Notes under the pieces: model-generated
Told to the model about the DNA's origin: nothing
Databases searched by the model: none
What the model saw: the letters and a program-made list of their open reading frames with translations, nothing else
Part shown: positions 45,975-48,603 of the stretch, in pieces
Position numbering within the stretch: the first letter of the stretch is position 1
Layout: every line of letters begins with the position of its first letter
Assembly: GCA_003225315.1 (NCBI GenBank)
Contig: QHZD01000035.1
Coordinates: forward strand, 1-64,000
DNA: 64,000 bases
From: Acidobacteriota bacterium
GTDB taxonomy: Bacteria > Acidobacteriota > Terriglobia > Acidiferrales > UBA7541
Direction: 5' to 3'
Translations under genes and position numbers: made by a program

Positions 45975-47459
45975 ATGCCGAAATCCGCTCCAGAGGCCAC
46001 CTCCATCGCGCCCGACGTGCTCGCCAAATACGAGCCCGTCATCGGCCTCGAAGTCCACGTGCAGCTCCTCACGCGCACAAAAATCTTCTGCGGCTGCTCC
46101 ACCCGCTTCGGCGATCCGCCCAACACCAATGTCTGTTCTGTCTGCCTCGGCCTCCCAGGCACACTTCCCGTGCTCAACAAGCGCGCCGTCAAAATGGCCA
46201 TGCGCGCCGCCCTTGCCCTGAACTGCACCGTCCACGACCATTCCCGCTTCGCCCGCAAGAACTATTTCTATCCCGATCTCCCCAAGGGCTACCAAATCTC
46301 CCAATACGAATTGCCTCTCGCCACCGGTGGCTGGCTCGAAATCGAAGTCGGCGGCGCTAAAAAACGCGTTGGCATCACCCGCCTCCATCTCGAAGAAGAC
46401 GCTGCCAAAAATCTCCACGAAGGTTTCTCGCAATCCGCCACCAAGGCCTACATTGACTACAACCGCTGCGGCACTCCGCTCAGTGAAATCGTCTCAGAGC
46501 CGGACATGCGGACTCCCGAGGAGGCCTACGCCTACCTCACCGCGCTTCGCCAGATTATGCTTTATACCGGTGTCAGCGATTGCAATATGGAAGAAGGCTC
46601 GCTCCGCTGCGACGCCAACGTCAGCGTGCGCCTGCGCGGCTCAAAAGAATTCGGCACCAAGGTCGAGGTAAAAAATCTGAATTCCTTCCGCTTTCTACAA
46701 AAGGCTCTCGAGTTCGAAATCGAGCGCCACATCGGCGTCCTCGAATCCGGCGGGCGCCTTTTCCAGGAAACGCGCCTGTGGAATCAAGCCGAAGGCCACA
46801 CCGTCTCCATGCGTTCGAAGGAAAAGGCCCACGACTACCGCTATTTCCCGGAGCCGGATCTTCTCCCCGTCCACGTCAGCTCGGCCTGGCGTGAAGAAGT
46901 CCGCCGCACCCTCCCCGAGCTCCCCGAAGCCAAGCGCGCCCGCTTCGTCGCCGCCTATAGCATCACGCCCTACGACGCCGAAGTGCTCACTAGCACGCAA
47001 TCTCTTGCCGAGTATTTCGAAGCTGTCGTCAAAGTCGGCGCTCCCGGCAAAGCCGCTGCCAACTGGATGCAAACCGAACTTCTCCGCAGCTTGAAAGATT
47101 CCGCCAAGGAAATCACTGCGAGCCCCGTTTCACCTGCCGCTCTCGCCGAACTGGTGAATCTCGTCGAATCCGCCAAAATCACCGGCGCGGTGGCAAAAAA
47201 AGTGTTCGCCGCCATGTTCGAGTCCGGCCGCACTGCCGCCGAAATCGTCGCCGCCGAAGGCCTCGGTGCCCAAGTCAGCGACGCGGCCATCGAGCAAGTC
47301 GCCAGGGAAGTCATCGCCAAAAACCCAGACAACGTGGCCAAATTCAAAGCAGGCAACGAAGGCGTCTTCAAGTTTTTCGTTGGCCAGGTCATGAAAGCCA
47401 CGCGCGGCCAGGCCAACCCCCAAGCCGTAAACGACATCCTCCGCAAGCTGCTTTCGTAA
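45975..47459 (+). CDS. gatB: Aspartyl/glutamyl-tRNA amidotransferase subunit B
   Basis: 494 residues, full length. The catalytic domain begins GLEVHVQLLTRTKIFCGCST and keeps the zinc cysteines (FCGCS ... NVCSVCLG) and LPKGYQISQYELPLATGGWL. Next come RLHLEEDAAKNLHE, YNRCGTPLSEIVSEPDMRTP and the C-terminal YqeY/helical tail ending GQANPQAVNDILRKLL. With GatA and GatC it transamidates Glu-tRNA(Gln) or Asp-tRNA(Asn). gatA and gatC are not in the window. It is notable that the tRNA-Asn gene is 34 kb away, though this need not be meaningful. Confidence 0.97.
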   Translation: MPKSAPEATSIAPDVLAKYEPVIGLEVHVQLLTRTKIFCGCSTRFGDPPNTNVCSVCLGLPGTLPVLNKRAVKMAMRAALALNCTVHDHSRFARKNYFYPDLPKGYQISQYELPLATGGWLEIEVGGAKKRVGITRLHLEEDAAKNLHEGFSQSATKAYIDYNRCGTPLSEIVSEPDMRTPEEAYAYLTALRQIMLYTGVSDCNMEEGSLRCDANVSVRLRGSKEFGTKVEVKNLNSFRFLQKALEFEIERHIGVLESGGRLFQETRLWNQAEGHTVSMRSKEKAHDYRYFPEPDLLPVHVSSAWREEVRRTLPELPEAKRARFVAAYSITPYDAEVLTSTQSLAEYFEAVVKVGAPGKAAANWMQTELLRSLKDSAKEITASPVSPAALAELVNLVESAKITGAVAKKVFAAMFESGRTAAEIVAAEGLGAQVSDAAIEQVAREVIAKNPDNVAKFKAGNEGVFKFFVGQVMKATRGQANPQAVNDILRKLLS

Positions 47460-47643
47460 GCAAAATGAAATTTGTCGTTGCTTGTTTTCGTAGAACAAGT
47501 TGCATCTCGGGCTGGCGCTGTAGCTCACACCCTTAGGCCTGAGGCTTTTGCGAGCGCGACGGCTGACCGTCGCTTTTCGGGTCTTCCCAGCCCATCGCTC
47601 GGATTCCTGTTATGCTTCCAACAACTGACCCGAGGAATGTCCC

Positions 47644-48105
47644 ATGCTCAAAGTAGGCGCCAAAGCCCCCGCCTTCCGCCTGCAATCCGACGAGGGCAAA
47701 GAACTTGCCCTCAACGACTTCGCTGGCCAGCGCGTTCTCCTTTTTTTCTTTCCCAAAGCCAGCACTCCCGGTTGAACCATCGAAGCGTCCGAGTTTCGTG
47801 ACGCAAAGAGGAAATTCGACAAGCTCGGCGTGGCCATCCTCGGGATGAGCGCTGATCCCGTCAAGGCTCTTGCTTCCTTCAAGGAAAAGCACCGACTCAA
47901 TTTCCCTTTGCTCAGCGACCCAGGGCGCAAAACCATCCAGAAGTTCGGTGTCTGGCAGAGGAAAAAGCTTATGGGCCGTACTTTCATGGGCATTATCCGA
48001 AGCTCTTTCCTCATCGGCAAAACCGGAAAAATCGAGGAACTCTGGCCCCTCGTCAGAGCCAAAGGCCACGCCTCCGAAGTCCTAGGCGTCATCTCCAAAA
48101 AATAA
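47644..48105 (+). CDS. bcp: BCP-type peroxiredoxin with in-frame UGA at the peroxidatic Cys (probable selenoprotein)
   Basis: 153 residues if UGA at 47773-47775 (codon 44) is read as selenocysteine. The frame runs from ATG 47644 (GAGGAA upstream) to TAA 48105. The UGA stands exactly where BCP/PrxQ proteins have the peroxidatic Cys: FFFPKASTPG-U-TIEASEFRD. The rest of the fold is intact: VAILGMSADPVKALASFKEK, LNFPLLSDPG, KFGVWQRKKLMG, IIRSSFLIGKTGKIEELW. The deduced protein has no cysteine, and the usual resolving-Cys position is Ser, so only Sec would make it active. A candidate bSECIS hairpin follows at 47785-47804. A point mutation or sequence error is the alternative. Confidence 0.82.
47785..47804 (+). 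promoter_or_regulatory. Candidate bacterial SECIS element
   Basis: GCGTC pairs with GACGC; a bulged T and three further pairs (CGA/TCG) lead to a GTT loop at 47793-47795. The loop lies 17 bases after the UGA, within the usual range of about 16-37 for bacterial SECIS hairpins, and starts with G as SelB-bound loops usually do. The bulged T is on the 3' side, unlike E. coli fdhF. SelB recognition is not shown. Confidence 0.55.
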
Positions 48106-48603
48106 GCCCCGTAGACTTTGCGCTCAAATCCCGTTATGGAGCGAATCCCGCCAGGCTCTCAATGGCCAAAGGCTGAAGCGGAGCCCGGCCTAAGCGCGCG
48201 ATGGCCTGGGCGAACTTCACTGCCCCCAACTCTTCCTTGACTTTCCTTAACGTTCTGGTATACTACTTTGCAGGTAAAACTTCGTAACTTTTCAGGCGCA
48301 GTCAGTCGTTGTCAAGGCAGTAGGGGGGCCCTATCCCTCGCCAAGTCATTTAGAATCAACACTGGAAGAAAAAACAGAAAAGAGCGTCTCTAACTTCCTT
48401 TAAAATCAACACTTACAGAGCCCGCCCGCAAGTGTTGATTCTAAACTACTTATGGAAATGCTAAATCCTTTAGATGCAACACTTACGTGAAACCCCGGGG
48501 GAGGGGTCCTGTTATTATTGACCAGAAATCGCCACTTTTCAGTTCGCGCCCTTATTGTGTTCGTGGTTGCGGCTTTGCCCGGCCATCGGACCCCAATTGG
48601 GGA
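48106..48603. other. Intergenic region (498 bp) with repeat cluster
   Basis: This gap lies between the convergent peroxiredoxin and glycine-zipper genes. It is AT-richer than its surroundings in 48330-48490, where four copies of a 16-base motif occur (separate entry). No gene, tRNA or strong terminator is seen. Confidence 0.6.
48349..48486. repeat. Cluster of four TTTARAATCAACACTT-like repeats, one inverted
   Basis: Copies: TTTAGAATCAACACT (48349-48363), TTTAAAATCAACACTTAC (48399-48415), inverted AAGTGTTGATTCTAAA (48430-48445), and TTTAGATGCAACACTTAC (48469-48486). Spacing is irregular (starts about 50, 31 and 39 bases apart). Copies 3 and 2 form a possible long hairpin. Too irregular and too few for a CRISPR array. 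Confidence 0.8.

Follow-up and report, generated by a model that had tools for sequence, protein, structure and literature searches.

An acidobacterial Bcp/PrxQ-type peroxiredoxin gene with UGA at the peroxidatic cysteine codon is very probably a selenoprotein gene

We analysed a window of 64,000 nucleotides (the whole stretch from position 1 to 64,000 of contig QHZD01000035.1, GenBank assembly GCA_003225315.1) from an Acidobacteriota bacterium. A sequence-only reading of this window, made without database searches, had proposed that it contains a peroxiredoxin gene with UGA in place of the peroxidatic cysteine codon. The gene, here called prxU, and the features around it are listed in Table 1. 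We found that its frame is open on both sides of a single internal TGA, as had been claimed, and that this TGA is codon 44, in the context PKASTPG-U-TIEASEFRD. Translation through the TGA gives a protein without any cysteine, resolving cysteine included, which bears out a further claim of that reading; position 49 (+5 from residue 44) is serine. Past the UGA, the longest ordinary open reading frame in the same frame begins with a GTG at 47830 and encodes 91 residues. An Rfam scan of 47400-48300 gave no match. The intergenic stretch that separates the peroxiredoxin from the next gene contains, at 48220-48500, short repeats like TTTAGAATCAACACT / AGTGTTGATTCTAAA.

Table 1. Features of the prxU locus, in window positions
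Feature	Position	Strand	Description and basis
gatB, upstream neighbour	45975..47459	+	Kept beside both Sec and Cys orthologues
Probable ribosome-binding site GAGGA	47632..47636	+	7 bases before ATG; inferred from reading the sequence
prxU, candidate Sec-containing Bcp/PrxQ-type peroxiredoxin, 153 aa	47644..48105	+	ATG to TAA; domain matches, AlphaFold2 model, PDB matches
In-frame UGA (Sec-44), at the peroxidatic Cys of PxxxTxxC	47773..47775	+	TGA in 97 and TGC/TGT in 52 orthologues, same column
Putative SECIS hairpin GCGUC-CGA-GUU-UCG-U-GACGC	47785..47804	+	8 bp; bulged U 47799; apical loop GUU 47793-47795

The deduced protein matched the Pfam AhpC-TSA domain with 124.9 bits (cut-off 26) and the NCBIfam model NF006960, 'thioredoxin-dependent thiol peroxidase', with 167.3 bits (cut-off 140). 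A sequence search of the PDB identified Bcp/PrxQ proteins as its closest solved relatives, and their cysteine aligns with the UGA, which therefore falls exactly where the sequence-only reading had put it, at the peroxidatic cysteine of the TPGxT motif. An AlphaFold2 model built with 24 sequences had a mean pLDDT of 96.5, and the best PDB folds for it were again Bcp/PrxQ, with TM scores of 0.91-0.96 and 35-41% identity for the best matches. Residue 44 lies close to the N-terminus of helix 42-53 in this model, and P37, T41 and R119 are invariant in 24 of 24 aligned proteins. The protein thus shares its fold and active-site residues with the atypical 2-Cys Bcp/PrxQ enzymes (E. coli Bcp; Xanthomonas campestris PrxQ, 3gkn/5iiz; Burkholderia, 5enu), but it has UGA for the peroxidatic cysteine and serine at +5. 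Nor is there a cysteine at the place expected from Cys84 of Xanthomonas PrxQ, so that neither resolving cysteine of the atypical 2-Cys PrxQ/Bcp type is present. In having a single catalytic chalcogen residue and no resolving cysteine, the protein resembles the 1-Cys enzyme AhpE of Mycobacterium tuberculosis, which has a similar fold (TM 0.81) but is more distant (29-30% identity) and uses cysteine where prxU would use selenocysteine.

Selenocysteine-containing peroxiredoxins have precedent in other bacteria, as had been pointed out. The Sec-Prx family of COG1225 (Bcp), with the motif TxxU, accounted for 43 genes in the Sargasso Sea selenoproteome (PMC1088965), stands ahead of the block headed 'Predicted' in a review (PMC9312934) and had been found in 78 organisms by 2016 (PMC5029168). 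With its Bcp-type AhpC-TSA domain and PKASTPGU motif, prxU belongs to this selenoprotein family, catalogued since 2005. It shares with the family the domain, the Sec position in PxxxTxxU and the order of UGA followed by a bacterial SECIS, and in both cases Cys homologues are widespread (PMC1088965, PMC9312934, PMC13188914). We found no defining difference, although prxU differs in lineage and locus, and most of the sampled acidobacterial Sec forms differ in lacking the resolving cysteine at +5. PrxU of Eubacterium acidaminophilum also has Sec at the peroxidatic position (PMC13188914), but the prxU protein scores 42.5 bits against the corresponding model (NCBIfam NF040737, peroxi_PrxU; cut-off 270) and by score falls in a different subfamily. 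For selenoproteins of Acidobacteria, our literature search found only a 2006 table entry of 3 selenoprotein families and 4 selenoproteins (PMC1794560) and one organism given with 3 selenoprotein genes (PMC12013277).

We next consider the source genome, a 4.98-Mb draft in 57 contigs that is 97.6% complete. All of the genes that the sequence-only reading had asked for were found: SelA (468 bits), SelB (364 bits), SelD (349 bits), whose own frame has an in-frame TGA (KAAGUAAK), and a tRNA-Sec (selC) with anticodon tca (UCA). The full set expected of a genome with a bacterial selenoprotein gene is therefore present. Its tRNA-Trp is ordinary, with anticodon cca. Among relatives, SelB over the cut-off was not found in two UGA-bearing genomes, G027 and G079, whose completeness is just 77% and 79%. 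The five genomes of one genus in the family (G088-G092) all carry the Cys form, and in four of these five SelB over the cut-off was absent, two of the four being 94% and 97% complete; this is as expected from loss of the Sec trait. The source genome also encodes two more peroxiredoxins whose FTGG-U-TK motif includes an in-frame UGA (L178, G000:C10, UGA at 543; L179, G000:C1, UGA at 575). Both have an N-terminal hydrophobic stretch and are probably exported, and they are related to L110 and L112-L116 from relatives. Together with SelD and prxU, they bring the probable selenoproteins of this genome to at least four. Separately, L111 (G034:C54, minus strand) is long and peroxiredoxin-like, has the motif WUPFC (UxxC) and resembles known Prx-like thiol:disulfide oxidoreductase selenoproteins.

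The codon itself was compared across 149 distinct orthologues drawn from the order and the class, with a few genomes from outside; nearly all belong to the same acidobacterial class. Codon 44 was TGA in 97, TGC in 44 and TGT in 8, and no orthologue had another disabling change, an outcome that agrees with what a selenoprotein had been predicted to show. As in other bacterial selenoprotein genes, the in-frame UGA aligns with a conserved redox cysteine of homologues. The nearest named relatives are Acidobacteria metagenome assemblies. The nearest separately assembled relative encodes a protein 97% identical and has TGA at the same codon; both this TGA and the hairpin recur in relatives whose genomes were assembled separately, with protein identities of 97%, 90%, 79% and 77%. 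The part of the gene 3' of the UGA had dN/dS values of 0.11-0.31 against ten relatives, the pattern of a sequence under purifying selection. Sec and Cys orthologues share the gatB-prx-panC locus (for example, the Cys forms L034 and L038), which indicates that they are the same gene rather than paralogues and that the residue was swapped in place. Parsimony places 16 Sec-Cys exchanges on the tree, but these are poorly supported, and strongly supported branches force only 2.

Several further observations concern the alignment. The tally of the class search, 'stops inside: 1 TGA', was not used as it stood. G221, G366, G348 and G126 were rejected as UGA forms because position 44 is cysteine; the TGA of G221 lies at the C-terminal end, in column 151, and is apparently an ordinary stop. 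At L091 (G075:C20:55432-57060), a single genome has two adjacent copies of this peroxiredoxin, one of the Cys and one of the Sec form. Immediately 5' of the UGA, at the end of codon 43 (47770-47772), T stands in 78 of 97 Sec forms versus 7 of 52 Cys forms, and A directly follows the UGA in 94 of 97 Sec forms. These biases raise the possibility of a context effect on UGA decoding.

The hairpin that had been noticed 17 bases after the UGA, with a loop starting in G, proved to have the features of a bacterial SECIS. The published model specifies a loop of 3-9 nt with G in its first two positions, an upper stem of 4-16 bp, a UGA-to-loop distance of 16-37 nt and a minimum free energy of at most -7.5 kcal/mol (PMC13188914). 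The prxU hairpin agrees with it throughout, with a 3-nt GUU loop, 8 bp with one bulge, a spacing of 17 nt and a folding energy of -10.3 to -12.9 kcal/mol. The value of -12.9 kcal/mol (z = -3.3) was obtained for the 40 bases 3' of the UGA, but in longer windows the stability is not significant (z of -0.5 and -0.9), so that the case for a SECIS rests on conservation and not on energy alone. In 60 UGA orthologues, synonymous diversity at codons 47-53 was 0.136, compared with a mean of 0.465 (SD 0.083) for the gene, whose lowest windows are concentrated around these codons; in 27 Cys orthologues (one of them misaligned in this region) the value for codons 48-54 was 0.49. Within the block, only one synonymous site varies freely, namely the third base of codon 52, and this base forms the bulge. 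The GUU loop was present in 62 of 64 distinct UGA sequences versus 20 of 52 Cys sequences, and a mean of 7.23 of the 8 hairpin pairs was kept in UGA forms versus 4.92 in Cys forms. Folding energy was also lower in UGA than in Cys forms (Mann-Whitney p = 1.4e-10, relatedness making such p-values overstate the difference). Among UGA variants, either the bulge is shifted or hairpin position 10 is re-paired with 20, with A-U, G-C and C-G all seen; the helix is kept only in part in one class family with AGGCGAACCAGUUCCGUGACGCC and in L051, L053 and L107. A whole-genome search with the hairpin element, allowing 3 mismatches, returned a single site, at prxU. At its synonymous sites, the hairpin shows the pattern of variation that marks a functional RNA element.

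These data bear on other explanations of the UGA. In the standard code it is a stop, and the 91-residue frame beyond it has a start of its own, as one would expect if prxU were a decaying pseudogene or if its 3' part were a short independent gene from the GTG at 47830. Such a product would lack the peroxidatic loop, however, and a true stop accounts neither for purifying selection on both sides of the UGA nor for synonymous constraint on the hairpin. The presence of UGA at this one codon in 97 orthologues from many genera, free of other disabling changes, refutes this explanation in practice, and we regard it as very improbable. With a draft genome of 57 contigs, a sequencing or assembly error that turned TGC or TGT into TGA could also be imagined, but it is refuted by the independent assemblies that repeat both TGA and hairpin at protein identities from 97% down to 77%, and its probability is negligible.

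Readthrough of UGA does exist in bacteria, and the codon might be read by near-cognate Trp or Cys insertion or have been reassigned, in either case without Sec machinery. Against this, table 11 leaves the other genes of the window open, the genome has a complete Sec system beside its ordinary tRNA-Trp (anticodon cca), and the UGA alternates with Cys rather than Trp codons and is followed by a SECIS-type hairpin; decoding of this kind is highly unlikely. Long open reading frames are also found on the minus strand, at 47533-48069 (178 aa) and 47610-48098 (162 aa), but conservation acts at the amino-acid level of the sense strand, with low dN/dS, and the sense frame, the one searched, matches Pfam and NCBIfam peroxiredoxins above their cut-offs. 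That the real coding region is antisense is vanishingly unlikely. The sel genes, the conserved UGA and the SECIS signature instead support the original suggestion of a probable selenoprotein, and these genomic comparisons indicate that prxU is almost certainly a real selenoprotein gene whose UGA is decoded as Sec.

In the mechanism that we propose, SelB bound to the hairpin just past the UGA would deliver Sec-tRNA(UCA), and the ribosome would insert selenocysteine as residue 44 of a Bcp/PrxQ-type peroxiredoxin. The selenolate would lie in the N-terminal part of helix alpha-2, beside Pro37, Thr41 and Arg119. Sec44 would then serve as the peroxidatic residue, reducing H2O2 or alkyl hydroperoxides and being converted to a selenenic acid. 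In ordinary PrxQ, the sulfenic acid is resolved by a second cysteine, often five residues on. As the prxU protein has no second cysteine, its cycle is most likely a one-Sec rather than a two-Cys cycle, and its composition fits a 1-Cys/1-Sec peroxiredoxin. The selenenic acid would probably be resolved directly by an external thiol, which may be thioredoxin, a low-molecular-weight thiol or a partner protein.

Cysteine at position 49 was found in 2 of 97 Sec forms versus 27 of 52 Cys forms (Fisher p = 3.5e-13, a value that ignores relatedness); on the tree, the association comprises only 2 independent pairs on supported branches, which makes it suggestive only. The lack of a resolving cysteine in most Sec forms suggests a one-selenocysteine mechanism. 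Two Sec forms, L051 (Myxococcales) and L174 (same class), keep the +5 cysteine (U44 + C49) and would be useful as natural two-residue controls. We also considered Cys68 as an alternative resolving cysteine. It is equally common in Sec (29 of 97) and Cys forms (16 of 52), seems to be lineage-bound and is missing from the prxU protein itself.

Five Cys forms (L118, L120, L122, L135 and L143) are nested among the Sec forms of one class family and lack C49. They look like Sec-to-Cys reversions, and in L120 and L135 the hairpin sequence is nearly that of their Sec relatives. Across the class, Sec may have replaced the two-Cys chemistry of Bcp/PrxQ, the resolving cysteine being given up as the enzyme became glutathione-peroxidase-like, with one Sec that an external thiol reduces directly; later reversions would then have stayed one-Cys, and the hairpins of L120 and L135 would be fossil SECIS elements. 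We consider the chances of this scenario to be evenly balanced.

The results widen the range of an already catalogued selenoprotein family across a class of bacteria abundant in soil, where the Sec-containing peroxiredoxin is likely to be cut short by gene callers. For acidobacterial SelB, they also define a clear consensus SECIS with the loop GUU. Sec and Cys versions at one locus in close relatives form a natural series in which to ask what a peroxiredoxin gains from selenium, and whether selenium allows it to do without the resolving cysteine.
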